Notes under the pieces: generated by a model
Told to the model about the DNA's origin: nothing
The model's database searches: none
The model's input: the letters and a program-made list of their open reading frames with translations, nothing else
Position numbers and translations under genes: made by a program
Assembly: GCF_003086295.3 (NCBI RefSeq)
Contig: NC_092051.1
Coordinates: 66,961,772-67,025,771 of the forward strand
Source of the DNA: Arachis hypogaea
Lineage: Eukaryota > Streptophyta > Magnoliopsida > Fabales > Fabaceae
Direction: 5' to 3'
Length of the DNA: 64,000 bases
In this document: positions 1 to 62,324 of the stretch, piece by piece
Layout of the letters: each line of letters starts with the position of its first letter
How positions within the stretch are numbered: the stretch's first letter is position 1

Positions 1-558
1 GAGCATGCATCTCTGAAAGGTTGCAGGCGCATTACACAGCCCAAAAGGCATCCTTCTGTAAGCAAATACTCCAGATGGACATGTGAATGCTGTTTTCTCT
101 TGATCCTGGGGATCTACTACAATTTGGTTGTAGCCTGAACAGCCATCCAAAAAGCAGTAATAATTATGACTTGCTAGTCTTTCTAGCATCTGGTCTATGA
201 ATGGTAAATGATCCTTTTTGGTGGCTGTATTGAGCCTTCTGTAATCAATACACATGCGCCACCCTGTAACTGTTCTTGTAGGAACCAGTTCATTTTTTTC
301 ATTATGAACCACTATCATGCCTCCCTTTTTAGGGACAACTTGAACAGGACTCACACAGGGGCTATCAGAAATAGGATAAATAATCCCAGCCTCCAGTAAT
401 TTGGTGACCTCTTTCTGCACCACTTCCTTCATTGCAGGATTTAGCCGCCTCTGTGGTTGAACCACTGGCTTAGCATTATCCTCCAATAAGATCTTGTGCA
501 TGCATCTAGCTGGGCTTATGCTCTTAAGGTCACTTATGGACCACCCAAGAGCTGTCTT
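1..558 (-). pseudogene. pol: Element A reverse transcriptase, N-terminal part
   Basis: Translated on the minus strand this continues the gag-protease frame past a TAG near 559 and gives the start of a Ty3/gypsy RT. The RMCIDYRRLN phrase is read near 230-270 and [17 protein letters not shown] follows toward the left edge. This part copies RNA into DNA in the element's particle; the catalytic FMDD region lies outside the window. It closely matches element Z at 62325-62900 but keeps the sequence intact at places where Z has stops. Confidence is high for family and orientation; the coding state beyond the left edge is unknown. Confidence 0.85.
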
Positions 559-1530
559 CTATGTCCTTAGCACTTGAATTAGTGCTTCCTCTTCCTGTGG
601 ATTTAAAGCGGAGCTTATGATCACTGGAAAAGTATCACCTTCTCCCAGAAATGCATATTTCAGGGATGGTGGTAATGGTTTGAGCTCGGGTTTAGGTGGT
701 TTTTCCTCTCCCTGAGGAAATTTCAGAGGCTCTTTCAATTCCTCTGAATCCTTTAGGTCAGGCGGAACATCTTTAAAAATGTTTTCCAGCTCTGATTCAA
801 GACTCTCAGCCATGTTGATCTCCTCCACCAGAGAGTCAATGAGATCAACTTTCATGCAGTCTTTTGGTGTGTCTGGATGCTGCATGGCATTAACAGCATT
901 CAACTTAAACTCATTCTCATTGACTCTCAGGGTTATTTCCCCCTGTTGGACGTCAATGAGAGTTCGTCCAGTTTCTAGGAAAGGTCTTCCTAGAATAAGA
1001 GTAGTACTCTTGTGCTCCTCCATTTCCCGCACAACAAAGTCAGTGGGAAAGGCGAATGGCCCAACCCTGACAATCATGTCCTCAATCACGCCTGATGGGT
1101 ATTTAATGGAGCCATCAGCAAGTTGGAGACATATCCGGGTTGGTTTAACTTCTTCAGTTAAACCAAGCTTTTTGATGGTGGATGTAGGTATTAGGTTGAT
1201 GCTTGCCCCAAGATCACATAGGGCTGTCTTGGTGCAATTACCCTCTAATATGCATGGTATCAAAAAGCTTCCGGGATCTTTAAGCTTTTTAGGAAAGTTT
1301 TTCAGAATGACTGCACTGCATTCTTCAGTGAGGAGAACTCTTTTAGTTTCTCTCCAATCCTTCTTATGACTTAGGATCTCTTTCATGAACTTGGCATAAG
1401 AAGGTATTTGCTCAAGTGCCTCTGCAAACGGAATCTTAATTTCAAGAGTCCTGAGATAATCTGCAAAGCGAGCAAATTGCTTATCCTGCTCCTCTTGGCG
1501 GAGTTTTTGAGGATAAGGTATCTTGGTTTT
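559..1530 (-). pseudogene. pol: Element A protease region (retropepsin) and flanking linker
   Basis: A 275-codon open stretch (1386-559), open upstream to 1530, encodes an aspartic protease domain. The active-site motif is CDLGASINLIP, with the Asp-Leu-Gly-Ala form common in Athila-type elements, and the second motif is LILGRPFL about 100 residues later. The C-terminal part is rich in Glu, Pro and Lys and is probably a linker before RT. The enzyme would cut the gag-pol precursor. A TAA at about 1531 separates it from gag, where element Z has a Tyr codon, and a TAG ends it before RT. Those breaks make it a pseudogene although the domain itself is uninterrupted. Confidence 0.88.
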
Positions 1531-2848
1531 TTATTCCTCAACCTTGGTTGCTGCAGGTTTTTTTTCTACAGAAATGGTTGAAGAAGCCTTTTTAGAGGGG
1601 TTGTCATCAGCACTTTTGTGTGTCTGATCCCTCACTGGCATTTGAGCACCATAGTTAGAAGCTGGAGTGACGTTAGACGCCAACTCCTCATCTGTTCCTG
1701 GCGTCTGAACGCCAGAACTGTGCTTCTTTTGGGCGTTTAACGCCAATTCCTTGCTTGTTTCTGGCGTTGAACGCCAGTCCTGAGCATGGTCTGGGCATTC
1801 AGCGCCAGCCATCCACCCAATTTCTGGCGTTTTAACGCCAGAATTATTTTTTTTCTGGGCTCTTGCTGTCCTCAGATGGATTTTGGGTGGTTTGCTCATT
1901 TCTTGGCTTCCTGCTGCCTTGAGGTGGGGTATTTAATGTTTTCCCACTTCTTAATTAAACTGCTTGGCATTCTTCTGTTATTTGTTTTGACAGCTGCTGC
2001 TTTGTTTGCTTCAATTGTTCTTCCATATTTATATTAGCCATCCTTGTCTCTTGTAGTCTATTTTTGAATTTGGCTAACTGCTGTGTTAGAAAGTCCAATT
2101 GCTGATTGAATTCAGTAGCTTGTTCAGCAGGACTGAGTTCAGTAGTCACTGTTTTAGCCTCTTCTTTCATGGAAAATTTGCTGCTTAGGTACAGATGCTG
2201 ATTTCTGGCAACTGTATCAATGAGCTCTTGAGCTTCTTCAATTGTCTTTCTCATGTGGATAGATCCACCAGCTGAGTAGTCTAGAGAGATCTGAGCTCTT
2301 TTTGTAAGCACATAATAGAAGATGTCTAACTGAACCCACTCCGAAAACATTTCAGAAGGGCATTTTCTTAGCATCTCTATGTATCTCTCCCAGGCATCAT
2401 AAAGAGATTCATTATCTCCTTGTTTAAAGCCTTGGATGTCCAACCTTAGCTATGTCATCCGTTTTGGAGGAAAGTATTGATTCAGGAATTTTTCTGTCAG
2501 CTGTTTCCATGTCTTTATGCTGGCCTTAGGTTGGTTATTTAACCACCTCTTAGCTTGGTCTTTTACAGCAAATGGGAACAGTAATAATCTGTAGACATCC
2601 TGATCTACTTTCTTATCATGTACTGTGTCAGCAATTTGTAAAAACTGTGCCAGAAACTCTGTAGGTTCTTCCTGTGGGAGACCGGAATACTGGCAACTTT
2701 GCTGCACCATGATAATGAGCTGAGGATTCAACTCAAAGCTACTGACTCCAATGGAGGGTATGCAGATACTACTCCCATATGAAGCAGTAGAGGGGTTAGC
2801 ATATGACCCCAGAGTCCTTCTGGACTGTTCATTTCCACTTAGATCAAT
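1531..2848 (-). pseudogene. gag: Element A gag
   Basis: The frame begins with the same residues as Z gag, but the start codon has become ATT (2848-2846), so initiation is lost. The capsid-like core has the retrotransposon gag signature, seen as KRWLNNQPKASIKTWKQLTE, then ESLYDAWERY and EMFSEWVQLDIFYYVL. A heptad-like Gln and Lys rich stretch around 2080-1960 is a likely coiled coil. In-frame stops lie at about 2452-2450 (TAG where Z has CAG), just after 1958 (TAA where Z has CAA) and 1531. The linker from 1850 to 1678 is built from the palindrome array listed separately. Gag would form the particle shell; this copy cannot make a full protein. Confidence 0.88.
1678..1850. repeat. Array of CTGGCGTT-N-AACGCCAG palindromes inside gag
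   Basis: About six copies of a palindrome near CTGGCGTT-N-AACGCCAG, some degenerate, spaced about 30-33 bases apart. They lie in the coding linker between the gag core and protease. The spacing stays in frame, so the array encodes a weak peptide repeat of 10-11 residues. The same palindrome occurs in the LTR of this element, in element F outside any gene (16600-16830) and in Z gag (61054-61200). Confidence 0.85.
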
Positions 2849-3530
2849 GATGGAGAAAGGGAGATAATGTAAAATAGAGAAGAAATATTTTTATTTATTT
2901 AATTATTTATTTATTTCGATAATAAAATAAATTAAAATAAAATAAATAAAAATGGGTGAAGATTTTCGAAAAAATGAGGAGAGAGAAAGTAGTTAGGAAG
3001 TTTTGAAAAAGATATGAAATTTTTTTTAAAAGGGTTTTAAATTTTGAAATAGAAAAAATCTGAATTTTAAGATTGATTTTCAAAAAATTACTTTAAAATA
3101 GAGGGAGAAAATATTTTTGAATTTAATGAGGAAAGAGAAAAACAATAAAATAACACAAGATCTAAAATGTTTAGATCTAATGCTCCTTGTTTTTGAAAAT
3201 TTGGAAGGGAAAACACCATGAAACACCAAACTTAAAAATTTTAAGATCAAGACACAGGGAAAACTCAAGAACGCCTTGAAGACTCACAAGAACAACAAGA
3301 ACATGAAGAAGGAACACCAAACTTAAAATTTTTAGAAAACCAAACTAAAATTTTCGAAAAACAAAGGAAAATCAACAAGAAATCACCAAACTTAAAGTTT
3401 GGCACAAGATTTAATAGAAAAATTATTTTTGAAAAGAAGATTTTGAAAAGAAAATAAAAGACTCTGACCCAAAAGACAAAAATTTCCTAATCTAAGCAAC
3501 AAGATTCACCGTCAGTTGTTCAAACTCAAA
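2849..3530 (-). other. Element A leader between primer site and gag, no gene
   Basis: AT-rich untranslated leader. It holds several copies of the word AAGTTTGGTGTT (on the minus strand, near 3385, 3310 and 3228) that resemble the polypurine tract region of elements F and J. I see no convincing coding region; the short ORF at 3080-3268 is low complexity. Confidence 0.7.
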
Positions 3531-3550
3531 CAATCCCCAGCAACGGCGCA
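3531..3550 (-). other. Element A primer binding site, tRNA-Asp type
   Basis: On the minus strand this reads as a near match to the complement of the 3' end of plant tRNA-Asp (TGGCGCCGTTGCCGGGGA). One C is missing and one base is changed. It lies 6 bases inside the LTR end. Confidence 0.8.
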
Positions 3551-3556
3551 AAAACT

Positions 3557-5061
3557 TGGTGCACGAAATTGTAACCAGCAAGTGCACTGGGTCGTCCAAG
3601 TAATACCTTACGTGAGTAAGGGTCGATCCCACGGAGATTGTTGGCTTGAAGCAAGCTATGGTTATCTCGTAACTCTTAGTCAGGATATAATATCAATAAT
3701 AATTTTTAATTTTAATTGTAAAAAGTAAAAAGGGCAGAACACAAATTATACTTGTATGCAGTAATGGAGAATATGTTGGAGTTTTGGAGATGCTTTGTCT
3801 TCTTAAATTCTGCTTTCCTCTATTTTCTGATTCATGCACGCACGTTCTCCTATGGCAAGCTGTGTGTTGGTGGATCACCGTTGTCAATGGCTACCATCCA
3901 TCCTTCCAGTGAAAAGGGTCCAGGTGCGCTGTCACTGCACGGCAAATCATCTGCAGGTTCTCAATCGTACCGGAATAGGATTTACTATCCTTTTGCGTCT
4001 GTCACTACGCCCAGCACTCGCGAGTTTGAAGCTCGTCACAGTCATTCAATCCCTGAATCCTACTCGGAATACCACAGACAAGGTTTAGACTTTCCGGATT
4101 CTCTTGAATGCTGCCATCAATCTAGCTTATACCACGAAGATTCTAATTAAGAGATCCAAGAGATATTCATTCATTCTACGGTGGAACGGAAGTGGTTGTC
4201 AGGCACGCGTTCGTGGGGGAATGATGATGATTGTCACGTTCATCACATTCATGTTGAAGTGCGAATGGATATCTTAGATAGGAACACACATGTTTGAATG
4301 GAAAACAGAAATACTTGCATTAATTCATCGAGACACAGCAGAGCTCCTCACCCCCAACAATGGAGTTTAGAAACTCATGTTGTCAAAGAGTACAAAGTTC
4401 AGATCTAAAATGTCATAAGATACAAAATAAATCTCTAAAAGTTTTTTAAATACTAAACTAGTAACCTAGGTTTACAGAAAATGAGTAAACTATGATAGAT
4501 AGTGCAGAAATCCACTTCTGGGACCCACTTGGTATGTGCTGGGACTGAGACTAAAGCTTCTCACGTGCCTGGGCTGTTTTGGGCATTCAACGCCAGGCTG
4601 TAACCTGTTTCTGGCGTTGAACTCCAACTTGTAACGTGTTTCTGGCGCTGGACGCCAGACTGCAACATGGAACTGGCGTTGAACGCCAGTTTACGTCGTC
4701 TATCCTTGAGCAAAATATAGACTATTATATATTGATGGAAAGCCCTGGATGTCTACTTTCCAACACAATTGGAAGCGCGTCAATTGGACTCTTGTAGCTC
4801 CAGAAATTCCATTCCGAGTGCAGAGAGGTCAGGATCCAATAGCATCAGCAGTCCTTTTTCAGCCTGAATCAGATTTTTGCTCAGCTCCCTCAATTTCAGT
4901 CAGAAAATACCTGAAATTATAGAAAAATACACAAACTCATAGTAAAGTCCAGAAATATGAATTTTTCTAGAAACTAATGAAAATAAACTAAAAACTAACT
5001 AAAACATACTAAAAACTATATGAAATTAACCCCAAAAAGCGTATAAAATATCCGCTCATCA
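3557..5061 (-). repeat. Element A 5' LTR
   Basis: 1505 bases. On the minus strand it begins TGATGAGCGG at 5061 and ends GTGCACCA at 3557. It carries the hairpin GGAAAG...CTTTCC (4737-4761) next to a TATATA run, then the CTGGCGTT-N-AACGCCAG array (about 4575-4692), and near its end the hairpin CCTTAC-GTGA-GTAAGG (near 3610-3626) in a block shared with other LTRs. Closely related LTRs are at 13054-14680, 27910-29547 and 57722-59257. Short ORFs inside it are not genes. Confidence 0.92.
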
Positions 5062-14680: not shown

Positions 14681-14718
14681 CAACACCAAACTTAAATTGT
14701 TGCTTGTCCCCAAGCAAC
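14681..14718 (-). promoter_or_regulatory. Element F polypurine region with upstream hairpin
   Basis: On the minus strand: hairpin GTTGCTT-GGGGAC-AAGCAAC (14718-14699), then AATTTAAGTTTGGTGTTG directly against the LTR start. Second-strand priming occurs next to the 3' LTR, so this is the polypurine tract position although it is only partly purine. The hairpin is part of a set conserved across elements (see findings). Confidence 0.75.
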
Positions 14719-16255: not shown

Positions 16256-16293
16256 CACACCAAACTTAGAAGGTTTGCTCGTCCTCGAGCAAA
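16256..16293 (-). promoter_or_regulatory. Internal copy of hairpin plus polypurine-like motif, element F
   Basis: On the minus strand: TTTGCTC-GAGGAC-GAGCAAA (16293-16274), then CTTCTAAGTTTGGTGTGG. It has the same order as at the 3' LTR, about 1.6 kb further in. Confidence 0.7.
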
Positions 16294-16599: not shown

Positions 16600-16830
16600 G
16601 TAAAACGCCCTTAGCATGCATTCCTGGCGTTAAACGCCAGCTTGCTGCTTGTTTTTGGCGTTAAACGCCCAAATGTAGCATGTTTCTGGCGTTTAACGCC
16701 ACTTCCATGCTCTGTTCTAGCGTTAAACGCCAGTCTGGTGCTTTTTTCTGGCGTTTAACGCCAGCTTGATGCTTCTTTCTGGCGTTAAACGCCAGTTTGA
16801 TACTTCTTACTGGCGTTTAAATGCCAGTAA
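16600..16830. repeat. Array of seven CTGGCGTT-N-AACGCCAG palindromes
   Basis: Near-perfect palindromes every 30 bases or so from 16624 (CTGGCGTTAAACGCCAG at 16624-16640) to about 16828, separated by short T-rich spacers. They lie in noncoding sequence between the protease end and the downstream ORF. This is the cleanest copy of the array in the window. Confidence 0.9.
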
Positions 16831-18770: not shown

Positions 18771-20603
18771 TGATGACAAGTCATCTTAGCCTAGTTTCAC
18801 TAGCCTTTTTCTTTTGTTTTCAATTGAATTATGCACTTTCTTAAGCCATAAGCAAGCCAATTGGGTAGATTTTCATGCTTCCTTCGATTTAATCAACCAT
18901 AGATGAATTAATGCAATTTCATGAGGTTTTATGCTATAATTGTCACATATTATGAAAGAATGAATATCTCATGATTTTGAGCATAGCTTTGATGTGTTTG
19001 GTTGATTGATGATAGGTGAAGAAAGCTTGGAGAAAGGTTGAAGCAAGGAGGAATGGCTAGGAGGAAGAGAGGACAAAAAGTTTGAGCAAAAGTTTGCCTC
19101 AAACTTTAGCTCAAACTTTTGGAATAAGTGAAAATGAACCAGGGAGCAAAAAGCTGGACCAAAAGTTTGCCTCAAACTTTTGTGCAAACTTTTGGGCAAA
19201 AAGCTGGAGCAAAAGTTTGCCTCAAACTTTTGTGCAAACTTTTGGGCAAAAAGCTTGAGCAAAAGTTTGCCTCAAACTTTTTGGCAAACTTTTGACATCA
19301 CAAATCAACACCCTGGAGAGCAAAAGTTTGCGCCAACGTTTGCCTCTAACTTTTTGGCAAACGTTGGCGCCATGAGTGTGCAAGGGGAGGCCAACGTTTG
19401 AGCAAAAGTTTGACCCCAAACTTTTGCCCAAACGTTGGTATCAGCAAAAGAGGGTGGCTGATGTGAAAAGTTTGAGTAAAAGTTTGCCTCAAACTTTTAC
19501 TCAAACTTTTACTCAAGCTTTCATGATTCCAAACCCGGTTCAATTCGGTTCTTCTCCAAACTCCAAGAGCAATCAACCAATGCCTCTATCAACCCAATTC
19601 CATCAAGAGCAAAGGCCCAATTGAAGGCTTGAAGACCATTTGAAGAAAGTGTATAAATAGCATAGGATTTAAGTTTTTGGAGAAGAGTTTTTTTTCCTTG
19701 AAGTTTTTCAGAGAGCTTTCCTTTTAGTTTTCATAGAGAGTTTTCGGAGAGCTTTTGGTGTTGAGTGAATTTTAATTTCTAAGTCTCGGGGAAGGAGAAT
19801 TGAATTCCCTTCCTCTTAGTTTTCTTGCTTTCAATTTCAATTACAATTGTCTTGGATCTTGGGTTGGAGAATTGAAGGAAATCTGTTTCAATCTCATCCT
19901 GGGATCTCTCTCTATTTCATTTTACTGCATAATTGAATTTCCATTTTGGTTAATTGCTTCTGTCTTCTACTTTCTTTGCAATTTACAATTTACAATTCCT
20001 TTGCAATTGTTCTTGTTGGATCTAGGAAGGCATTGAGATCTAGACTTGGTTATCTAGTCTCTTGGGTCCTGAGATCCAGATTTCCCATTTTCAATTCTCT
20101 GTTTATTGCTTTCAATCTCATTTACATTTCTGTTTATAGATCCGATTCAATCCAAGTGATCTTCTACTTCTCTGTTTATTGCAATTTACTTTTCCTTGTT
20201 TAAATTCTGTGAATCCAATTCCCAATTCCCTTTACAATTCAAGCCATTTACATTTCTTGCACTTTAAGATTCTGCAATTTACATTTCTTGCGTTCTAAGT
20301 TTCTGCCATTTAATTTCTTGTTCTTTAAGATTCAGCACTTTAAATTTCAGTTCTCTTTACTTTCATGCAATTTACCCATTCCCTTTACTTTCCATGCAAT
20401 TTAAATTTTGTTAATCACAAATCACTCAACCAAATCTTGATTCGCTTGACTAAATCAACCGCTAAACAAAAATTGCTCAATCCTTCAATCCCTGTGGGAT
20501 CGACCTCACTCCCGTGAGTTATTATTACTTGATGCGACCCGGTGCACTTGCCGGTTAGTTTTGGGTGTTTTGGAAAATTCAGTTTTCCACAAAAACACCA
20601 TCA
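18771..20603 (+). repeat. Element J 5' LTR
   Basis: Begins TGATGACAAGTCATC and ends ACACCATCA. An array of CAAAAGTTTG-type inverted units fills about 19076-19515, and TATAAATA is at 19652-19659. The end block contains CTCAC-TCCC-GTGAG. The ORFs within the array (Phe, Lys and Gln rich) exist on both strands because the unit is palindromic; they are not genes. Confidence 0.95.
19652..19659 (+). promoter_or_regulatory. TATA box of element J 5' LTR
   Basis: TATAAATA in GTGTATAAATAGCATAGG, a consensus plant TATA box. The copy in the 3' LTR is at 24432-24439. Confidence 0.7.
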
Positions 20604-20609
20604 AGTTTT

Positions 20610-20627
20610 TGGCGCCGTTGCCGGGGA
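20610..20627 (+). other. Element J primer binding site, tRNA-Asp
   Basis: TGGCGCCGTTGCCGGGGA is an exact complement of the 3' end of plant tRNA-Asp including CCA. It begins 7 bases after the LTR end. Confidence 0.88.
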
Positions 20628-20791
20628 TTGATTAGATTGACAATGATTAAGTGAGGTGGTGATCTAGATCTAGCATTTTTATTTCCTGTTTCTTTAATTT
20701 TTGACTAACCCACTAACTGTTTGAAGTTTTGTCTCAACTGACTACACTCAAATTTCAAGAATACCACTGTGCGTTCTGTTTGGTGATTTAT

Positions 20792-21994
20792 ATGTCACAG
20801 GAAAGAAGAAAGGTCAGAGGAAAGGGTATCAATGAAGAAGGAGTTCCTGAGAAAGAAGAACACCACAACATGAAGTCGCAAATCATTACACTAATCAAGA
20901 ACAATTGTTCCTATGGTGGAACTCCACTGGAGAATCCTAAACAGCACCTATCCAATTTTCTGAGAACTTGTGGTGCTGTCAATCTCGATAGTGTAAATCA
21001 TGATACCTATAAGCTCTTGTTATTTCCCTTCTCACTGAAGGATGAAGCGGCACAATGGCTTGAAACCTTTCCCCAAGGGAGTATAACTAGTTGGGATGAT
21101 TTGGTTGCCAAGTTTCTAGCCAAATTCTCCTCGTCCCAACAAAACATCAAGATGAAAGAGGGAGTACATCCATTCATACAAGGAGGGGAAGAACCATTGT
21201 TCAAAGCATGGGAAAGATACAAGAAGGCAAGCAACAAAGCAGATTTCCAAGCATTTTATGAAGGATTAACCCCGGAAATAAGAAGAGCGGTGGATCACTT
21301 CTCAGATGGCCTGCTCAACGCAACAGCAACCATCCAAGGAACTACAGAGTTTAATGACAAGAGAGCCAATAACCAACACTCATTTGAGACCCCACAGAAT
21401 GCAACTTTAGAAAAGGAGATAATGAATCTTGAAGGAATGAAGGCAGTCATGAATCAAAGCAAACAGCTACATCAGCAAACTCAGCAACAATTAGAGTCAA
21501 TAGCTAGATAAATTGATTTTCTCCATTCTACTATAGTGAATGCACAATTTCCACCATGGAAGCCACATTCTTATCTAAGAATGAGGGAATCTCAACATCA
21601 GGAACAAAGGGACTTCAACTACAACAACCCCAATTTCCCAAACCTGCAAAAACACCACCATACCAACAACAATCACTACATACCACCACACTACCCACCC
21701 TTCCAACCCCCAACACCCCACAACCAACCAATCTCACAAGACTCTCAGAGGATCACCAATCTGGAGATCTTAGTAGAGAGAATGATGACACATCAAGAGA
21801 TGATAAGCAAACACCAGGAGGCCTCACTCGGGAGAATTGAGAGGCAAATGGAACAATTAGCTAAGAATCTCACAGAAATGAGTGAGAAGAGGGCTAAAGG
21901 AAAAGAATCACTCATCCAGGATGAGCATCACAAAGCAAAGCCTCACTTTGGAGGACAAGGGGACAAGGAGAAGGAAGCTCAGAATCTGAACTGA
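20792..21994 (+). pseudogene. gag: Element J gag, one in-frame stop
   Basis: The ATG at 20792 (MSQERRKVRGKGINEEG) is the first real start; the frame is open further upstream but without ATG. The core shows the Ty3/gypsy gag pattern: DTYKLLLFPFSLKDEAAQWL, ITSWDDLVAKFLAKF, then EEPLFKAWERYK and the LTPEIRRAVDHFSDG segment. Then come a Gln-rich helix, a His/Pro/Asn-rich linker and a charged coiled coil (MEQLAKNLTEMSEKRAK). A single TAA at 21509-21511 splits the frame, most simply a changed Gln codon. No CCHC zinc knuckle is seen. The protein would form a particle using enzymes from another element. As the LTRs are nearly identical, the stop may predate insertion, meaning the copy moved entirely in trans. 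Confidence 0.85.
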
Positions 21995-23513
21995 GCAAGC
22001 ACAGAGGATGTCAAGCTAGTGACAATAAAAGAGCGCTTGTTGGGAGGCAACCCAACCGGAGGTAACCATCTCTTCATATCTATTTTAATAAAAAAGCTAA
22101 TTAGTTTTATCTATATTGCAAGAAGCTAAGTTTGGTGTTACACACCAAAACAATATAAAGGAGAATGAAGGATTCTAAGTTTGGTGTTCCACCAAAATCC
22201 CATTATAAAACACTTTCTCACTATCTGCATAATGCTGGCTTCAAGCATGTTGGATGAACTAGTTAGCTATTTTGCTGTTTCCTAGTTTTCAGTTGCATGG
22301 CTTTTGAAAAAAAAAAAAGAGAAAAAAAATTATCACACATGGTTAATTTGATGCATGAAAACCATTGGCAAGGTACTAAGTTTGGTGTTCCCACACCAAA
22401 GTAAGTTCAAAGGCCTACAAATAAATCATGCAGACTAACCATAGTCTCTAAGTGCTTGGGGAACAAGCAACTTTCAATATCACTGCAGGGTACCATACAA
22501 ACTTTTGGAAAGATTTAGCATCATCTATCAAAAGGAAGAGAGAGGAATGTAAAGATCGGCAATGATGATGAGGAAGAGGAAAGCAAGCGAACTCCAAAAG
22601 GTTGTATTGTTCAGTGATTATTTTGTATCAGATGCTGCTAAATTGAAAATTACATAATACCCCTGCCTGCCTGCATAGTATAGTTTTTCTGTAATTCAAT
22701 AAGCAAGATGCTTGATCATTTACAACACTATACTCTCCAAAACTTGTTTGCACTCAATATTTCAAAAAAAAAAATTGCATCACATGAAAGTTCTTTGAAA
22801 AGAAGGATTGAGGAATCAAACAATTTTGAGGCAAGCAAAAGATTAGGAGAAGTGGCGGTTCTAGTTGTATGATTATGTATTGAGGTTGCATGCTTATGAA
22901 AACTTGCATGGGAGCTCATAGGCAGGACATGAAGTTCAAAGAAGTATTGTGGATATTCTCAAAAATTTATTGATCCAAGAAGCAGCAAACAAAACAAAAG
23001 AAAATAAAGAAAATACAAAAGCAAAAAAGAACATGGCCCAAGGCTCTGAGCATCAATTACTAGGCAGAAAAGAAAGAAGAAACAATGACTCAAAGAGTTG
23101 TTAGCCTAGTAAATGCTTGTGGTTGAGTTGTGCCAAAGAAAGAGGCTTGAGCAAGTAAATCCTTAGGGGTGCTTTAACACCTAATACCTTAAAACCAACT
23201 GGTTTAGGAGTATTGATTGAAAGCTTATTTAAAGAGCCGCTTTGAGACATGACACTTAGAGTCAAAGCCAAAGCAAAGAGACTATAAGCTGCTTCAAGGT
23301 GACTACATATAAAGAGATCTCCATGATACCATTTGGATGAAAATCCTAAGACCTAAGACTCCCAATATGTGAGGACTAGTGAGCACTGAAGCCCTTGCAT
23401 GAGCATATGATTTAGAGTTCACCCCACTGACACTTAATCACTTCACTCACAGGACCTTACAATTTATTCTTCAATCCGTCTTAATTGAAAGAACCTTTGA
23501 GCAAAATTCATTT
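21995..23513 (+). other. Element J 3' noncoding region
   Basis: No gene seen. It contains the tandem hairpins at 22009-22056 and three AAGTTTGGTGTT words. Two of these form perfect hairpins TTTGGTGT...ACACCAAA (22131-22149 and 22381-22400). A degenerate TGCTT-GGGGAAC-AAGCA hairpin lies at 22453-22469. Confidence 0.7.
22009..22056 (+). promoter_or_regulatory. Tandem hairpins after element J gag
   Basis: TGTCA-AGCTAG-TGACA (22009-22024), linker AATAAAAGAGCGCTT, then GTTGGG-AGGCAA-CCCAAC (22039-22056). They begin 15 bases after the gag stop. Counterparts occur in F, E and C. Confidence 0.78.
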
Positions 23514-23550
23514 CTTGCTTGGGGACAAGCAAGCTTTAAGTTTGGTGTTG
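23514..23550 (+). promoter_or_regulatory. Element J polypurine region with upstream hairpin
   Basis: CTTGCTT-GGGGAC-AAGCAAG (23514-23533), then CTTTAAGTTTGGTGTTG directly against the 3' LTR start. The first stem pair is C-G here and G-C in element F, a compensating change. Confidence 0.78.
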
Positions 23551-25383
23551 TGATGACAAGTCATCTTAGCCTAGTTTCACTAGCCTTTTTCTTTTGTTTT
23601 CAATTGAATTATGCACTTTCTTGAGCCATAAGCAAGCCAATTGGGTAAATTTTCATGCTTCCTTCGATTTAATCAACCATAGATGAATTAATGCAATTTC
23701 ATGAGGTTTTATGCTATAATTGTCACATATTATGAAAGAATGAATATCTCATGATTTTGAGCATAGCTTTGATGTGTTTGGTTGATTAATGATAGGTGAA
23801 GAAAGCTTGGAGAAAGGTTGAAGCAAGGAGGAATGGCAAGGAGGAAGAGAGGACAAAAAGTTTGAGCAAAAGTTTGCCTCAAACTTTAGCTCAAACTTTT
23901 GGAATAAGTGAAAATGAACCAGGGAGCAAAAAGCTGGACCAAAAGTTTGCCTCAAACTTTTGTGCAAACTTTTGGGCAAAAAGCTGGACCAAAAGTTTGC
24001 CTCAAACTTTTGTGCAAACTTTTGGGCAAAAAGCTTGAGCAAAAGTTTGCCTCAAACTTTTTGGCAAACTTTTGACATCACAAATCAACACCCTGGAGAG
24101 CAAAAGTTTACGCCAACGTTTGCCTCTAACTTTTTGGCAAACGTTGGCGCCATGAGTGTGCAAGGGGAGGCCAACGTTTGAGCAAAAGTTTGACCCCAAA
24201 CTTTTGCCCAAACGTTGGTATCAGCAAAAGAGGGTGGCTGATGTGAAAAGTTTGAGTAAAAGTTTGCCTCAAACTTTTACTCAAACTTTTACTCAAGCTT
24301 TCATGATTCCAAACCCGGTTCAATTCGGTTCTTCTCCAAACTCCAAGAGCAATCAACCAAGGCCTCTATCAACCCAATTCCATCAAGAGCAAAGGCCCAA
24401 TTGAAGGCTTGAAGACCATTTGAAGAAAGTGTATAAATAGCATAGGATTTAAGTTTTTGGAGAAGAGTTTTTTTTCCTTGAAGTTTTTCAGAGCGCTTTC
24501 CTTTTAGTTTTCATAGAGAGTTTTCGGAGAGCTTTTGGTGTTGAGTGAATTTTAATTTCTAAGTCTCGGGGAAGGAGAATTGAATTCCCTTCCTCTTAGT
24601 TTTCTTGCTTTCAATTTCAATTACAATTGTCTTAGATCTTGGGTTGGAGAATTGAAGGAAATCTGTTTCAATCTCATCCTGGGATCTCTATCTGTTTCAT
24701 TTTACTGCATAATTGAATTTCCATTTTGGTTAATTGCTTCTGTCTTCTACTTTCTCTGCAATTTACAATTTACAATTCCTTTGCAATTGTTCTTGTTGGA
24801 TCTAGGAAGGCATTGAGATCTAGACTTGGTTATCTAGTCTCTTGGGTCCTGAGATCCGGATTTCCCATTTTCAATTCTCTGTTTATTGCTTTCAATCTCA
24901 TTTACATTTCTGTTTATAGATCCGATTCAATCCAAGTGATCTTCTACTTCTCTGTTTGTTGCAATTTACTTTTCCTTGTTTAAATTCTGTGAATCCAATT
25001 CCCAATTCCCTTTACAATTCAAGCCATTTACATTTCTTGCACTTTAAGATTCTGCAATTTACATTTCTTGCGTTCTAAGTTTCTGCCATTTAATTTCTTG
25101 TTCTTTAAGATTCAGCACTTTAAATTTCAGTTCTCTTTACTTTCATGCAATTTACCCATTCCCTTTACTTTCCATGCAATTTAAATTTTGTTAATCACAA
25201 ATCTCTCAACCAAATCTTGATTCGCTTGACTAAATCAACCGCTAAACAAAAATTGCTCAATCCTTCAATCCCTGTGGGATCGACCTCACTCCCGTGAGTT
25301 ATTATTACTTGATGCGACCCGGTGCACTTGCCGGTTAGTTTTGGGTGTTTTGGAAAATTCAGTTTTCCACAAAAACACCATCA
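23551..25383 (+). repeat. Element J 3' LTR
   Basis: 1833 bases and about 99.2 percent identical to 18771-20603 by hand count (9 transitions, 6 transversions, no indels). It is followed by target repeat tgtat. Confidence 0.95.
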
Positions 25384-33538: not shown

Positions 33539-33757
33539 ATGGGTACCAAGAAAGGAAAAGAGAAGGCCACTGAAAAGACCCCACCAAGGAGAAGAACCAC
33601 GAGACCCCCGGCTAAGGCACCTCCATCTACAAGCATCAAGCCGCCAACAAAGTGGGTGAAGAGAATCATCAAAGCCAATGAAGCAGAAAAAACGTCAGTT
33701 GGGGCAACCTGTCCACTTGCTCATCTTAGCATGTCCCGAGGACGGTGCAATCTTTAA
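33539..33757 (+). pseudogene. Element E ORF2 remnant
   Basis: Starts MGTKKGKEKATEKTPPRRR, Lys, Pro and Thr rich, and ends after about 72 codons. The start sits two bases after a splice-acceptor-like CCTTCCTCCTTAG, like ORF2 of C and D. The stop lies at the GAGGAC plus polypurine-like motif, again as in C and D. The large central domain of C and D ORF2 is missing, so this is probably an internally deleted version. Only position and the two ends support the homology; the protein is too short to prove it. Confidence 0.5.
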
Positions 33758-42677: not shown

Positions 42678-42698
42678 TGGCGCCGTTGCCGGGGATCG
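42678..42698 (+). other. Element C primer binding site, tRNA-Asp
   Basis: TGGCGCCGTTGCCGGGGATC matches the tRNA-Asp complement exactly over its 20 bases; 4 bases after the LTR end. Confidence 0.9.
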
Positions 42699-47175: not shown

Positions 47176-48361
47176 ATGTCAGACAAAGGAAAGGCTATAG
47201 CCACTACTTCCAAAAAGAGGAAGCACTCTAAGACCTCTACCCCCTCTCCCTATGCAAATTATGCTAAGAATCTGCTGAATGAGGTGGATAGGGAAAACCA
47301 GTTGCTGCCACCCACGGACCCAATCAAATTCCCAAACCTCTACTGTGAGCTTCGCTTCTCTGACTTCCGGAAGAAAAATCTGAACATTGAGAAGAAACTA
47401 CTTCCCAATGATGTGAGGCGTGCCATTAACACTCGAATCCTGGAGTTAGGATTGGACTTTGTTGATAGAGACCTAGGGAGGGTGAACACTTCATCGGTGA
47501 GAGAATTTTATTGCAACTTCTTCCGAGCCGATATTGATTCAGTTCAACTGAGGGGTAGAAAAATTATGATCACTGAGGATGCTATTGGAGATGCATTGCT
47601 TTGCCACAATCGTCCTGATGAGACCTGCGCCTATAGACAGGCAGAGGTAGCTATCCTTTCCATGACGTTTGACTATGAGGCGCTTAAGCGCGTGATTGCC
47701 ACACCAGACGCTCCCTAGGTGATGAATTCGAACAACAAGAAGCCTAAGGGGATGCGCTTTTCTTACCTGACGAGGGAGGCCAAGACCTGGCAGCATATCT
47801 TCGCCTACTATGTCTTCCCCACCAATCACTTCTCAGAGATTCCGATGGATATGCTGGTTCTGATTGGGTGTGTGATGGAAGGGAATGAGATAAACTTCCC
47901 CCGACTGGTCAGGCATAGTATGTGGAAAGCTCATATTCGCAGGACCCCCTTCTACTTCAGCAGCCGCAACATCCTTACCACCACCACCATTAGTACCTAA
48001 GCCGACTTATCTGTTGGTGCAACACCTTCTTTGCTTCATGGAGCGCTTCGAGCGTTGTGTCATGCGATGTCTTGATCGCATCAATCAGGTGTTTGTATCA
48101 CAGGGCATCGAGCTACCGCCGCTCCCAGACTCTCCAGCTTCTGACGAGCAGGATCCGGAGGAGGAGCTGGTTGAGGAGCCGATTCATAAGGATGATCTCC
48201 AGAGACACAGGCCGCCACTGAAGTCCAACAGTCTCTTGAGGATCCACAGCCACATCCAGAACCGCAGCCAGTCCCAGTTCCATAGCCTGAGCCTGACGAG
48301 CCCGGCGCAATTGTTGACCCCCATCCCGAGCTTCAGCAGTAGCATCGAGGACGATGCTTGA
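47176..48361 (+). pseudogene. Element C ORF2, 'putative plant transposon protein' type
   Basis: ATG at 47176 (MSDKGKAIATTSKKRKHSK), Lys/Ser-rich start, then the domain: YCELRFSDFRKKNLNIEKKL, ELGLDFVDRDLG, REFYCNFFRAD, GRKIMITEDAIGDALL, DMLVLIGCVMEG. Spacing and phrases fit the plant-specific family called putative plant transposon protein (PF20167, from memory). A TAG at 47716 replaces the Trp seen in D. After about 47945 a deletion and shift follow; the C-terminal acidic and Pro-rich tail (48014-48361) is read in another frame and includes CLDRINQVFVSQGIELPPLP. The stop overlaps the GAGGAC hairpin. Function is unknown; the family is widespread in plant genomes, mainly within repeats. Confidence 0.75.

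Positions 48362-48546: not shown

Positions 48547-48611
<65 letters not shown>
48547..48611. repeat. (TA)n microsatellite, about 32 units
   Basis: Uninterrupted TA repeat in the noncoding 3' part of element C. Element D has none at the matching place. Confidence 0.95.
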
Positions 48612-50008: not shown

Positions 50009-50045
50009 AGCATGAGGACATGCTTAGTTTAAGTGTGGGGAGATT
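50009..50045 (+). promoter_or_regulatory. Element C polypurine region with upstream hairpin
   Basis: AGCAT-GAGGAC-ATGCT (50009-50024), TAGTTT, then AAGTGTGGGGAGATT abutting the 3' LTR. Confidence 0.82.
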
Positions 50046-51610
50046 TGATAAACCCCGATTTTGTAATTTATCTTGTGCTTATTTTGGGGGATTTTATCAT
50101 CTTTTTCCACATTTATTGAATGAAATAGTATGGTTTTGTAATTCTCCCTCGAATTTTGCTTAAGTGTAAAAACATGCTTTTTAGACCCCAAATTGGTGAT
50201 TTTGATTCATTTTAATTCCATTCGATGTCTTGATGTGTGTGTTGAGTAATTTCAGGTTATAAAGCAAGTATTGGATGGGAGAAATGAGTAGAAAAGCATA
50301 CAAAGGGGAGAATGCACGAAGAAACAAAGATTGGGAGTGCATCAAAGGACGCGCACGCTCACAAGGTGCGCACGCGCAAAAGTGATCTTGCCCATGGACG
50401 CGCACGCGTACATGCCGCTTCCGCGCGGATGGAGAAATTGCCAATCGACACGCACGCGCATTTGGCGCGTATGCGCCAATATTCTTACATGGCCCACCTG
50501 AAGGCAAAACGCTGGGGGTGATTTCTGAGCTGCCCAGGCCCAAGTCTAACTTGTTTCTGAGTGTATTTCATGCAGAATTAAAGTCCAAGCAAAGGGGGAG
50601 CAATTAGTTTAGCCAACATGAGTCTTTAGTTAGTTTTCTAGAGAGAGAAGCTCCCTCTTCTCTCTAGAATTAGGTTAGGATTAGGTTAGATCATCTTAAT
50701 TTCATGTTTAATTACTTGATCTCATCTTGTTTCCTTTATAATCTCTCATTTCTACATCTTGATTCTCTTAATTGTGATGTTAATTTCTCATTTTGCTCTC
50801 TTTTGTGATGATGAACTCATGTTGGATTTGATTTACTTTTAATGCAATTTAATGTTGATGTTCCTTTTTATTGATGAATTGAATTGTGATCTTACTTTTC
50901 TTGCACTTAGTAGTTATTAGATTTTATTATTCTTACAATTTATAATGTTTACCTTTATTGCACTCTATGTGTTTGATGAAATGATCTCTTTAATTTTTGA
51001 GTAATTTTGTCAACTCTTGGCCTAAGCCAAGGGAATTGGGTAATCTTGAGTCATTGGGTATGATGGATTTGGTGATTTGAGAACCCATGGTGATCAATTT
51101 GACACCCATTGACGCTAACCCACTACTAAGTTCATTAGTAGGTAGGTTAGGACTTAAGGGTGGATGTGATCAAATCTATTTGACGTACTTCAAGCTTAGG
51201 AGTAAATGTTACGTACTTAAAGCTTTTGGGAAGTAGACTTAATAGATTGGCCTCTCATGATTATCAATATTCGGTTTGTTGACAAGGATGGTGATCTCAA
51301 TTACCCAAATCTTAGCCAAGAGTTCTTTATTTTGCTCTCTTTATTCGCTTGCTAATTCTATTTTTCTTGCCCTCTCATGAACCAAAATCCCCCTTTTACC
51401 CTTTCATAGCCAATAAGTAAGCATTACATTGTTTTCCTAGGGAGATGACCCAGAGTCCAAATACTTCGGTAAATTTTCATTGGGGTTTGTACATGTGACA
51501 AAACCAAATTTTTGATGTGAGAATTGTTTGTTGGTTTGGAGCTATGCTTACAACGAAGTCTTTATTTCTATAAGAGAAATTCTAAACCATCAAGCGAGAC
51601 TCGCTCGTCG
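50046..51610 (+). repeat. Element C 3' LTR
   Basis: 1565 bases, 34 longer than the 5' LTR because it keeps the hairpin CTAGAGAGAGAAG...CTTCTCTCTAG (50638-50667). Palindromes at 50347-50482. Target repeat cccag follows. Confidence 0.94.
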
Positions 51611-53254: not shown

Positions 53255-53291
53255 AACCTCTCCACACTTAAACTAAGCATGTCGTCATGCT
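53255..53291 (-). promoter_or_regulatory. Element D polypurine region with upstream hairpin
   Basis: On the minus strand: AGCAT-GACGAC-ATGCT (53291-53276), then AAGTGTGGAGAGGTT against the LTR. The loop differs by one base from C; the stem is intact. Confidence 0.78.
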
Positions 53292-54985: not shown

Positions 54986-55022
54986 CTCCCCACACTTAAG
55001 ATGAAGCATCGTCCTCGATGCT
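54986..55022 (-). promoter_or_regulatory. Internal hairpin plus polypurine-like motif, element D
   Basis: On the minus strand: AGCATC-GAGGAC-GATGCT (55022-55005), then CTTAAGTGTGGGGAG (55000-54986). The ORF2 stop TAG lies at its first bases. Confidence 0.78.
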
Positions 55023-57721: not shown

Positions 57722-59257
57722 TGATGAGCGGATATTTTATACGCTTTTTGGGGTTAATTTCATATAGTTTTTAGTGTGTTTTAGTTAGTTTTTAGTTTAT
57801 TTTCAGTAGTTTCTAGGCAAAATTCATATTTTTGGACTTTACTATGAGTTTGTGTGTTTTTCTGTAATTTCAGGTATTTTCTGGCTGAAATTGAGGGAGC
57901 TGAGCAGAAATCTGATTCAGGCTGAAAAAGGACTGCTGATGTTGTTGGATTCTGACCTCCCTGCACTTGGAATGGATTTTCTGGAGCTACATGACTTCAA
58001 ATGGTGCGCTTCCAATTGCGTTGGAAAGTAGACATCCAGAGCTTTCCAAAAATATATAATAGTTTATACTTTGCTCAAGGATAGACGATATAAACTGGCA
58101 TTCAACGCCAGTTTCATGTTGCAGTTTGGCGTCAAGCTTTAGAAACAGGTTACAAGTTAGAGTTCAATGCCAGAAAAGGATCCAAAGCTGGCTTTGAACG
58201 CCCAAAACAGCCCTATGCACGTGATTAGCTTAAGTCTCAGCCCCAGCACACACCAAGTGGGCCCCAGAAGTGGATTTCTGCACTATCCATCTTAGTTTAC
58301 TCATTTTCTGTAAACCTAGTTTACTAGTCTAATATTTAAACAAATTTTAGAGACTTATCTTGTATCTCATGACATTTTTTATCTGAACTTTGTACCTTTT
58401 GACAGCATGAGTCTCTAAACCCCATTGTTGGGGGTGAGGAGCTCTGCTGTGTCTCGATGAATTAATACAAGTATTTCTGTTTTCCATTCAAACATGCGTG
58501 TTCCTATCTAAGATATCCATTCGCACTTCAATATGAATGTGATGAACGTGACAATCATCATCATTCCTCCACGAACGCGTGCCTGTCAACCACTTACGTT
58601 CCATCATAGAATGAATGAATATCTCTTAGATCTCTTAATCAGAATCTTCGTGGTATAAGCTAGATTGATGGCAGCATTCAAGAGAATCCGGAAAGTCTAA
58701 ACCTTGTCTGTGGTATTCCGAGTAGGATTCAGGGAATTAATGACTGTGACAAGCTTCAAACTCACGAGTGTTGGGCGTAGTGACAGACCTAAAAGGATAG
58801 TAAATCCTATTCCGGTACGATTGAGAACCTGCAGATGATTAGCCGTACGGTGACAGCGCATCTGGACCCTTTTCACTGGAAGGATGGATGGTAGCCACTG
58901 ACAATGGTGATCCACCAACACACAGCTTGCCATAGGAGGACGTGCATGCGTGAATCAAAAAACAGAGGAAAGCAGAATTTCAGAAGACAAAGCATCTCCA
59001 AAACTCCAACATATTCTCCATCATTGCATACAAGTATAATTTGTGTTCTGCCCTTTTATTCCTTGCAATCAAATTTGATAAGTGAATTATTTTATTGTTT
59101 TCCTGACTAAGAGTTACAAGATAACCATAGATTGCTTCAAGCCAACAATCTCCGTGGGATCGACCCTTACTCACGTAAGGTATTACTTGGACGACCCAGT
59201 GCACTTGCTGGTTAGTGGTACGAGTTGTAAAAAGTGTGATTTACAATTCGTGCACCA
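57722..59257 (+). repeat. Element Z 5' LTR
   Basis: 1536 bases, TGATGAGCGG to GTGCACCA. Contains the perfect hairpin TTGGAAAG...CTTTCCAA (58021-58049) followed by TATATAAT, palindromes near 58095-58205, and CCTTACTCACGTAAGG-type hairpin near 59167-59182. Confidence 0.93.
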
Positions 59258-59263
59258 AGTTTT

Positions 59264-59279
59264 TGGCGCCGTTGCCGGG
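59264..59279 (+). other. Element Z primer binding site, tRNA-Asp
   Basis: TGGCGCCGTTGCCGGG matches the tRNA-Asp complement; the next bases diverge. Six bases after the LTR end. Confidence 0.87.
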
Positions 59280-60044
59280 CATTGTTTGAGTTTGGACAAC
59301 TGACGGTTTACTTTGTTGCTTAGATTAGGAAAAATTTTTCTTTTTGGTTTAGAGTCTTTTATTATTTATACCTTGTTAAAACACTTTAAACTTATAGCTC
59401 AATTAGCTACAGCGTGGTGCTTATGTTCTTAGTAATTGGCTAGCCTGTTTTTAAAATCTTTTTCAAAAATATTTTTTCTTTGAATAAATCTTGTGCCAAA
59501 CTTTAAGTTTGGTGTGTTCTTGTTGATTTTTCTTTATTTTTCGAAAATTTTAGTTTGGTTTTCTAAAAATTTTAAGTTTGGTTTTCTTTCTTCATGTTCT
59601 TGTGTTCTTGTGAGTCTTCAAAGTGTTCTTGAGTTTCCTTGTGTCTTGATCTTAAAATTTTTAAGTTTGGTGTTCCTTGGTGTTTTCCCTCCAAAATTTT
59701 CGAAAACAATGAGCATTATATCTAAAAATTTTAAATCTTGTACTATCTTATTGTTTTTCTCTCTCCTCTTTAAATCCAAAAATATCTTTTCTCTCTATTT
59801 TAAAGTAAATTTTTGAAATTTACCTTTAAAATTCAGATTTTTATTTCAAAATTTAAAACCTTTTTCAAAAATCATCATATCCTTTTCAAAACTTCCTAAC
59901 CACTTTCTCTCTCCTCATTTTTTTTCAAAAATCTTCACCTATTTTTATTTATTTTATTTTAATTTATTTTGTTTTTGAAATAAATAAATAATTAAATAAA
60001 TAAAAATATTTTCTTCTATTTTACATCATCTCCCTTTCTCCATC
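59280..60044 (+). other. Element Z leader, no gene
   Basis: AT- and T-rich leader with AAGTTTGGTGTT words near 59507 and 59663, mirroring the leader of A. The ORF at 59493-59816 is low complexity and was not accepted. Confidence 0.7.
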
Positions 60045-61187
60045 ATGGACCTAAGCGGAAATGAACAGTCCAGGAGGACTCTGGGGTCATATGCTAACCC
60101 CTCTACTGCTTCATATGGGAGTAGTATCTGCATACCCTCCATTGGAGTCAGTAGCTTTGAGTTGAATCCTCAGCTCATTATCATGGTGCAGCAACGTTGC
60201 CAGTATTCCGGTCTTCCACAGGAAGAACCTACAGAGTTTCTGGCACAGTTTTTACAGATTGCTGACACAGTACATGATAAGGAAGTAGATCAGGATGTCT
60301 ACAGATTATTACTGTTTTCATTTGCTGTAAAAGACCAAGCTAAGAGGTGGTTAAATAACCAACCTAAGGCCAGCATAAGGACATGGAAACAGCTGACAGA
60401 AAAATTCCTGAATCAATACTTTCCTCCAAAATGGATGACACAGCTAAGGCTGGACTTCCAAGGCTTTAAACAAGGAGATAATGAATCTCTTTATGATGCC
60501 TGGGAGAGATACAGAGAGATGCTACGAAAATGCCCCTCTGAAATGTTTTCAGAGTGGGTTCAGTTAGACATCTTCTACTATGGGCTTGCAGAAAGAGCTT
60601 AGATGTCTCTAGATTACTCAGCTGATGGATCTATCCACATGAGAAAGACAGTTGAAGAAGCTCAAGAGCTCATTGATACAATTGCCAGAAATCAGCATCT
60701 GTACCTAAGCAGTGACCCTTCCATGAAAGAAGAGGTTAAAACAGTAACTGCTGAACTCAGTCCTGTAAAACAAGCTACTGAATTCGATCAGCAATTGGAC
60801 TTTCTAACAAAGCAGTTAGCCGAATTCAAGGATAGACTACAAGAGACAAGGATGGCTAATATAAATATGGAAGAACAATTGAAGCAAACAAAACAGCAGC
60901 TGTCAAAACAAATAACAGAAGAATGCCAAGCAGTTCAATTAAGAAGTGGGAAGACATTAAATACCCCACCTCAAGGCAGCAAGAAGCCAAGAAATGAGCA
61001 AACCACCCAAAATCCACCTAAGGACAGTAAGAACCCAAGGAAAAATAATTCTGGCACTAAAATGCCAGAAATTGGGTGGAAGGCTGGCACTGAACGCCCA
61101 GACCATGCTCAAGACTGGCGTTCAACGCTAGAAACAAGCAAGGATCTGGCGTTGAACGCCTAAAAGAAGCACAGTTCTGGCGTTCAG
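60045..61187 (+). pseudogene. gag: Element Z gag
   Basis: ATG at 60045 (MDLSGNEQSRRTLGSYANPS) is intact, unlike in A. The core includes FELNPQLIIMVQQRCQYSG, YRLLLFSFAVKDQAKRWL and ESLYDAWERYREM. An in-frame TAG at 60600 and TAA at 61161 replace Gln codons seen in A. A Gln-rich helical part (60770-60960) precedes the linker with CTGGCGTT-type palindromes. No zinc knuckle is visible. Gag would form the particle; full-length product would need readthrough of two stops. Confidence 0.88.
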
Positions 61188-61200
61188 ATGCCAGGAACAG
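61054..61200. repeat. Palindrome array inside element Z gag
   Basis: About five degenerate copies of CTGGCGTT-N-AACGCCAG, matching the array of A at 1678-1850 in position and frame. Confidence 0.8.
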
Positions 61201-62324
61201 ATGAGGAGCTGGTGTCTAACGTCACTCCAGCTTCTAACTCTGGCACTCAATTGCCAGTGAGGGATCAGACACACACAACTGCTGATGACAACCCATCTGA
61301 AAAGGCTTCTTCAACCACTTCTGTAGGAAATAAACCTACAGCAACTAAGGCTAAGGAATATAAAGCCAAGATACCTTATCCTCAAAAACTCCGCCAAGAG
61401 GAGCAGGATAAGCAATTTGCTCACTTTGCAGATTATCTCAGGACTCTTGAAATAAAAATTCCATTTACAGAGGCACTTGAGCAAATACCTTCTTATGCCA
61501 AGTTCATGAAAGAGATCTTGAGTCATAAGAAGGATTGGAGAGAAACTGAAAGAGTTTTCCTCATTGAAGAATGCAGTGCAGTCATTCTGAAAAGCTTTCC
61601 TGAAAAGCTTAAAGACCTTGGGAGTTTTCTGATACCATGCACATTAGAAGGTAATTGCACCAAGACAGCTTTATGTGATCTTGGGGCAAGCATCAACCTA
61701 ATACCTGCATCCACTATCAGAAAGCTTGGTTTAACTGAAGAAGTTAAACCAACCCGGATATGTCTCCAACTTGCTGATGGCTCCATTAAATACCCATCAG
61801 GCATGATTGAAGACATGATTGTCAGAGTTAGGCCATTCTCCTTTCCCACTGACTTTGTAGTGCTGGAAATGGAGGAGCACAAGAGTGCTACACTCATTCT
61901 AGGAAGACCCTTCCTAGCAACTGGACAAACTCTCATTGATGTCCAACAGGGGGAAATAACCCTGAGAGTCAATGATGATGAGTTTAAGTTGAATGCTGTC
62001 AAAGCCATGCAGCATCCAGACACATCAAAAGACTGCATGAAAGTTGATCTTATTGACTCTTTGATAGAAGAGATCAACATGGCTGTGAGTCTCGAATCAG
62101 AGTTGGAAGACATCTTTAAAGATGTTCAGCCTGATTTAGAGGATTCAGAGGAAATGAAAGAGCCTCTGAAATTTCCTCTGGAAGAGGAAAAACCTCCTAA
62201 ACCCGAGCTCAAACCATTACCACTATCCCTGAAATATGCATTTCTGGGAGAAGGTGACACTTTTCCAGTGATCATAAGCTCTGCTTTAAATCCACAGGAA
62301 GAGGAAGCACTTATTCAATGCTAA
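61188..62324 (+). pseudogene. pol: Element Z protease region
   Basis: 378 open codons. Motifs: CDLGASINLIPASTIRKLGL (active site), FVVLEMEEHKSATLILGRPF, then an acidic Pro/Lys-rich linker (EEEKPPKPELKPLPLSLKYA). The frame ends at 62324 because one base is missing near 62317 compared with A. It is in frame with gag, so a single gag-pro-pol precursor is likely in intact relatives. The protease domain itself appears undamaged. Confidence 0.88.

Follow-up and report, generated by a model that had tools for sequence, protein, structure and literature searches.

A covarying hairpin beside polypurine-tract-like sequences of probable Athila-type Ty3/gypsy elements in peanut, a candidate structured plus-strand origin

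Reverse transcriptase (RT) is mainly seen as choosing its plus-strand primer by the RNA/DNA geometry of a purine tract. According to the available portions of the papers cited here and below, the plus strand of a retroelement is expected to start at the tract directly before the long terminal repeat (LTR), and the polymerase and RNase H sites of the Ty3 RT lie about 13 bp apart (PMC5371799). An extra polypurine tract (PPT), located after pol and before the 3' LTR, is described for the env-containing Ty3/gypsy elements Athila4 and Calypso (Wright and Voytas 2002, as cited in PMC2829016), Sireviruses carry multiple PPT copies upstream together with an inverted repeat spanning the PPT (PMC2829016), and a U-box or T-box upstream of PPTs aids priming in retroviruses and Ty1 (PMC10085805). 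Here we analyze a stretch of 64,000 nucleotides from peanut, Arachis hypogaea (NC_092051.1, positions 66,961,772 to 67,025,771; hereafter, the window), which contains nested Ty3/gypsy-like LTR elements. Four of these, named C, D, F, and J, carry a hairpin that a few spacer bases separate from a PPT-like tract downstream, an arrangement that we call the module. We hold, with moderate confidence, that the module serves Athila-type Ty3/gypsy elements as a structured plus-strand origin.

A first-pass annotation of the window had reported seven hairpins with a GRGGAC-type loop in the four elements, and all seven were recovered at the positions and with the loops it gave (Table 1). Its description of a 6-nt loop on a stem of 5-7 bp is better replaced by a 4-nt loop (RGGA, and ACGA once) closed by a G-C pair on stems of 6-8 bp. 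The tract, given as AAGTGTGGGGAG or AAGTTTGGTGTT, is exact at four of the seven sites (the terminal sites of C, F, and J and the internal site of D), with close variants at the internal sites of C and F and the terminal site of D. The placement just before the 3' LTR holds for the terminal modules of C, D, F, and J, whose tracts abut that LTR, while the remaining hairpins of C, D, and F sit about 1.6-1.7 kb farther upstream at a second PPT-like tract. At most five of the seven sites are independent, as C and D are homologous at both their terminal and their internal sites and the terminal site of F is related to that of J. Fold energies of single sites are unremarkable (z from -0.94 to -2.68) and were rejected as proof of the hairpin; at the terminal site of D, the minimum-energy fold differs from the proposed one. 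A search of the window against Rfam 15 gave no match at the gathering score. The support for the predicted hairpin is comparative.

We searched the genome to which the window belongs (2.557 Gb, 440 contigs) with two loop-plus-tract patterns that left the stem unconstrained. GAGGACN{6,18}AAGTTTGGTG gave 40,372 matches against 8 for its reversed control, and GAGGACN{6,18}AAGTGTGGGG gave 39,576 against 3. At least five contiguous Watson-Crick pairs outside the loop were found at 29 of 30 loci for either pattern, and among the AAGTGTGGGG-pattern matches listed, the gap from loop to tract was 11-13 nt in 100 of 100, though 6-18 nt had been allowed. Outside this genome, searches of viral contigs (three patterns, 35 loci) and prokaryotic contigs (one pattern, 1 locus) returned chance matches only, and these loci, used as a null, had contiguous stems of 2 bp at most. 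A sample blind to the hairpin was then drawn with four plain patterns consisting of the tract and the bases that follow it, namely AAGTTTGGTGTTGTGATG (61,847 genome matches), GTGTGGGGAGGTTGATAAACC (12,802), GTGTGGGGAGGTCG (18,533), and AAGTTTGGTGTGGTAAAAGC (21,062), with reversed controls at 0 each. It comprised the first 40 places of AAGTTTGGTGTTGTGATG, 40 of the first 43 places of GTGTGGGGAGGTTGATAAACC (all but 17999870, 19814543, and 20986567), and every fifth of the 100 places listed for each of GTGTGGGGAGGTCG and AAGTTTGGTGTGGTAAAAGC, all 120 sites lying on one contig (C1). The first-pass annotation had raised the possibility of stems being lost as by neutral decay; instead, at least five contiguous Watson-Crick pairs outside the loop are kept at 107 of the 120 blind sites (37/40, 37/40, 14/20, and 19/20 by pattern, in the above order). 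A standard pair is formed in 781 of the 840 cells of these samples, and at 114 of the 120 sites, GAGGAC stands at the expected position with at most one letter changed. In a relaxed hairpin search, at least 6 bp were found at 74 of 80 blind terminal sites, at none of 40 F-type terminal sites when the control position 38 nt farther upstream was taken, and at 170 of 3000 random window positions. In all 74 intact terminal sites, the LTR lies 24-26 nt past the end of the loop. One F-type internal subfamily among the genome loci (L230, L236, L237, and L244) has the loop GAGGGC in place of GAGGAC and keeps the stem.

The covariation test of the stem that the first-pass annotation had called for was run on larger alignments, and covariation is strong. 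It amounts to 0.703 on 41 distinct hairpins for which loop and tract were required (shuffles 0.178 ± 0.027) and to 0.678 on 65 distinct hairpins of the blind sample (shuffles 0.191 ± 0.020), with none of 500 shuffles reaching the observed value in either case; the sequences are related, and the shuffle and slid controls model no tree. Loci that had been selected against paired arms were left out of the covariation set, as was L155 (partial, no loop) from alignment A2. In the blind set, slid controls give 0.063 to 0.181, and 90.2% of cells are paired against 62.2% in shuffles. Change on both sides is seen at seven of the eight stem pairs, the closing G-C pair varying on one side only. The stem types across families include TTGCTT/AAGCAA, TTGCTC/GAGCAA, TTAGCAT/ATGCTAA, TAAGCAT/ATGCTTG, AGCATC/GATGCT, TGCACC/GGTGCA, and TAGCACG/CGTGCTA, and the TGCACC/GGTGCA arms are those carried by intact genome relatives of an eighth, decayed hairpin of the window. 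The hairpin itself thus appears to be under selection, since its letters vary between families and its arms still match. It is very improbable that chance or shared ancestry alone, with one ancestral palindrome inherited by all copies, accounts for the pairing: most copies are close relatives and the stem types are limited in number, but stem positions change on both sides between families while pairing holds, and neither slid controls nor shuffles reproduce it.

Most families seen carry two modules, one before the terminal tract that abuts the 3' LTR and a second before an internal tract about 1-3 kb upstream. Among 100 places listed for the AAGTGTGGGG pattern, the order internal-then-terminal occurs in 29 of 32 close same-strand pairs, 1.4-3.1 kb apart, and the spacing is about 1 kb in other families (L053). 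Within one element, the two stems have different sequences and the same geometry, and the internal tract, found at numerous genome places as well as in C, D, and F, is a putative second PPT. Hairpin and tract stay constant while the frame context of the internal module differs. The final part of an extra open reading frame (ORF), a Transposase_32 (PF20167) frame in L098 and L114, overlaps the internal hairpin in C-type elements, and in F-type elements, the hairpin lies before the extra ORF starts, so that the internal module marks a border of the extra ORF, a different one in the two types. Transposase_32 scores above the cut-off in D, L041, L052, L055, L058, L098, L112, and L114 and below it in C. 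About 800 nt upstream of the internal module of the F-type locus L041 is the end of a frame whose protease matches score below the cut-offs, and in L052, also F-type, Transposase_32 is located between both modules. The notion that the F-type internal hairpin keeps outside large open frames is ruled out by a 519-aa stop-free frame that passes through it in L041, L055, and L056. An integrase match below the cut-off upstream of the internal module of L058 suggests that pol-bearing elements may carry the module too. Upstream of the internal module of L127 lies a 668-aa open frame with no Pfam match (1498-3504, minus strand), and L114 has an F-type-like LTR start, TGATGAGCGGATA, a few bases past its C-type internal tract (1500-1590), which is probably a separate insertion.

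The terminal tract, being directly followed by the LTR, is the expected plus-strand start, and since hairpin, spacer, and tract are common to internal and terminal sites, plus-strand priming is favoured as their shared role. LTR processing leaves the internal sites unexplained, because the element's LTR does not follow them; the internal copies therefore favour plus-strand priming over 3' processing. It is rather unlikely that the hairpin instead serves to recruit RNA in trans by binding Gag, nucleocapsid, or RT (for packaging or RT loading) and lies near the PPT incidentally. The constancy of GGAC in the loop at 78 of 80 blind terminal sites, despite stem variation, would suit such protein binding. 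So would the makeup of the window elements: in a Pfam scan of stop-free pieces (covering 7 of the 12 listed for C, 3 of 3 for D, 7 of 16 for F, and 2 of 6 for J, with seven of the pieces of F outside the scanned set falling in the J insertion), no RT or integrase was found in J, F, C, or D, so that, judged from these pieces, the four look non-autonomous and would need cis signals read by partner proteins. Packaging, however, needs no two copies per element, each beside a tract at fixed spacing.

In a structured plus-strand origin, the hairpin would mark the tract during minus-strand synthesis, either through pausing of RT at the hairpin or by fixing where the RNA primer begins. RNase H would thereby cut correctly at the 3' end of the tract and the primer would remain; the terminal copy would make the LTR end, and the internal copy would start extra plus strands, like a central PPT. 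More tentatively, we suggest that structure may have partly replaced purine content, a covarying hairpin with a fixed purine loop setting primer cleavage at a tract that is often non-polypurine (AAGTTTGGTGTTG), with most elements having two such origins of different stems and the same geometry.

Several observations weigh against a structured plus-strand origin. No internal tract with a module was seen in J, which has no internal copy with a GRGGAC loop in the window. Exact AAGTTTGGTG is accompanied by a GRGGAC hairpin at 3 of its 15 window copies and stands without one at 12, and the hairpin-less copies may be additional PPTs comparable to those of Sireviruses. Of the five covariation measures, two (pairs with two-sided change, and further pair types) are no higher than in the shuffles in either set. 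The stem base lies 16-21 nt from the LTR in intact terminal sites, farther than the spacing of about 13 bp in the Ty3 RT, which leaves a simple ruler unsupported by that enzyme. Retroviral RT has a ruler of 17-18 bp, and a fixed ruler of this length was dropped in view of both the varying distance and the Ty3 value. The closing and six inner pairs show no G-U excess (6 G-U against 12 A-C departures), so that folding of the RNA is indistinguishable from folding of the minus-strand DNA or from neutral decay after insertion. Of the selected RNA structure proposed in the first-pass annotation, the selected structure is thus borne out by covariation and the blind samples, and RNA as the folding strand is not. 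A hairpin that acts in minus-strand DNA, or that stops plus strands arriving from upstream and so limits strand displacement per origin, would agree with the lack of G-U excess, with covariation that is blind to strand, and with a hairpin directly upstream of each tract; as no datum requires the DNA strand, we consider it unlikely.

The frame context of F-type elements also counts against plus-strand priming. In 18 of 19 F/L058-type internal sites, an ATG stands 66-67 nt past the loop start, and in L041, L055, and L058, the ATG at +67 opens a Transposase_32 frame of 357-374 aa (E 1e-38 to 1e-40), so that a role in the leader of the extra ORF would explain the internal module too. This is the strongest point for any rival, and the C-type internal hairpin, overlapping its frame end, could likewise belong to the end of that ORF, the terminal copy being a relic or duplicate signal. 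We nevertheless regard a leader or translational role as quite improbable. It is not common to the C-type, where the longest ATG-started frame beginning 30-400 nt downstream of 13 internal modules has 47 aa, and no ORF follows the terminal hairpins, yet they are equally well kept. The window counterpart of the F-type ATG arrangement lies near 16293-16200.

If plus-strand priming is indeed its role, a selected hairpin at fixed distance would be a structural determinant of primer choice, testable with short RNAs. The module involves two tracts in most families seen and tens of thousands of copies in one crop-type genome, and it is a strong marker for locating the 3' ends and internal tracts of the elements that carry it.

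Element J (18771-25383) is inserted within element F and has LTRs at 18771-20603 and 23551-25383 that are 99.2% identical. F occupies about 29547 to 13054 of the minus strand, with its 3' LTR at about 14680-13054; C extends from 41143 to about 51609, with its 3' LTR starting at 50046; and the 3' LTR of D, a minus-strand copy, begins at 53254. The pieces scanned include a gag match in J and, in F, a gag match together with a protease match below the cut-off. Six places in the window have the primer binding sequence TGGCGCCGTTGCCGGGGA, exact or with up to two changes, and in J, C, and F it stands 5-6 nt after a defined LTR. By the published description of Diaspora and Calypso, it would pair with tRNA-Asp. 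Its position fits the tRNA-Asp site described for these two elements at about 5 bp after the LTR (PMC1142308), and the carriers are probably Ty3/gypsy elements of the Athila type. Element B has a protease frame and an RT stretch that shares 72% protein identity with a published fragment of the Arachis Ty3/gypsy element Pipoka (PMC5904367); a 104-base Pipoka piece scored 40 copies in the genome, one of them identical. The window ends (1-5061 and 57722-62896) are two inverted copies of one element family, about 92% identical.

Table 1. Hairpins, tracts, and primer binding sites located in the window
Feature	Position	Strand	Remarks
J terminal hairpin	23514..23533	+	stem CTTGCTTG/CAAGCAAG, loop GGGA
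J PPT-like tract AAGTTTGGTGTTG	23538..23550	+	abuts 3' LTR
F terminal hairpin	14699..14718	-	stem GTTGCTTG/CAAGCAAC, loop GGGA
F terminal PPT-like tract AAGTTTGGTGTTG	14681..14693	-	before 3' LTR
F internal hairpin	16274..16293	-	stem TTTGCTCG/CGAGCAAA, loop AGGA
F internal PPT-like tract AAGTTTGGTGTG	16256..16267	-	
C terminal hairpin	50009..50024	+	stem AGCATG/CATGCT, loop AGGA
C terminal PPT AAGTGTGGGGAGATT	50031..50045	+	3' LTR follows directly
C internal hairpin	48341..48358	+	AGCATCG/CGATGCT, loop AGGA; overlaps final codons of open frame, TGA at 48359
D terminal hairpin	53276..53291	-	AGCATG/CATGCT, loop ACGA
D internal hairpin	55005..55022	-	AGCATCG/CGATGCT, loop AGGA
Eighth, decayed internal-type hairpin	33732..33749	+	TGTCCC GAGGAC GGTGCA, then AAGTGTGGAGAG
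J primer binding site	20610..20627	+	6 nt past 5' LTR
C primer binding site	42678..42695	+	same sequence as in J; 5 nt past 5' LTR

The 15 exact window copies of AAGTTTGGTG all follow the orientation of the element concerned (J, B, F, or A), at 22128, 22177, 22378, 23538, 59505, and 59663 on the plus strand and at 27324, 27133, 17115, 17082, 16267, 14693, 3393, 3324, and 3233 on the minus strand. Each of the three inner copies of J (22128-22398) is followed by its own complement and forms a different small hairpin with a loop of 3-4 nt (TTTGGTGT...ACACCAAA twice and TTTGGTG...CACCAAA once). Many families also have an inverted repeat at the 5' end of the LTR, just past the tract (23551-23565, 50046-50072, and L168-L207), for instance GATGA CAAG TCATC or GATAAACCC...GGGTTTATC; among 40 C-type terminal sites, it is 7 bp or longer in 29, with an exchange of CCC/GGG and CCA/TGG. 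This LTR-start hairpin was rejected as a part of the module, for it is inconsistent at internal sites though common in terminal families. Tandem 31-bp repeats of the palindrome CTGGCGTTNAACGCCAG occupy 16624-16828 in the 3' region of F and 4575-4689 in the LTR of A, and C has a perfect (TA)32.5 run (48547-48611) between its internal and terminal modules.

For Athila4 and Calypso, a second PPT has been reported before, and no account of Athila-type elements with a hairpin ahead of the PPT was found in the open-access literature as searched by title and the start of the abstract, subscription papers being outside its scope. The available portions of PMC1142308 and PMC11963269 make no mention of such a hairpin, and the open-access papers listed as matching sequence words of the module look unrelated by title. 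The Ty3 system resembles ours in using a Ty3/gypsy plus-strand primer; it differs, as far as the accessible text of PMC5371799 and PMC11381356 goes, in that no central PPT was identified, the PPT lies in a region paired with lower probability, and no upstream hairpin is mentioned. The U-box or T-box is likewise a cis signal just upstream of the PPT, and a short T run is also present at the peanut sites, but in the part of PMC10085805 at hand it is a sequence tract rather than a hairpin. C, D, and F resemble Athila4 and Calypso in having an additional tract, putatively a PPT, that follows the coding region and precedes the 3' LTR, the extra PPT of the latter two being described without a hairpin in the available part of PMC2829016. 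Sireviruses, according to the same portion of that source, have several PPT copies upstream and an inverted repeat at the PPT, as do the peanut elements, but they are Ty1/copia elements whose repeat arms lie before the PPT and inside the LTR, with the PPT in the loop, and whose upstream PPTs have no repeat. Their junction, with a AGGGGGAG PPT near the LTR and flanking arms, was not encountered in the window elements, in which tract and arrangement differ: here, the entire hairpin precedes the tract, at the internal copy as well.
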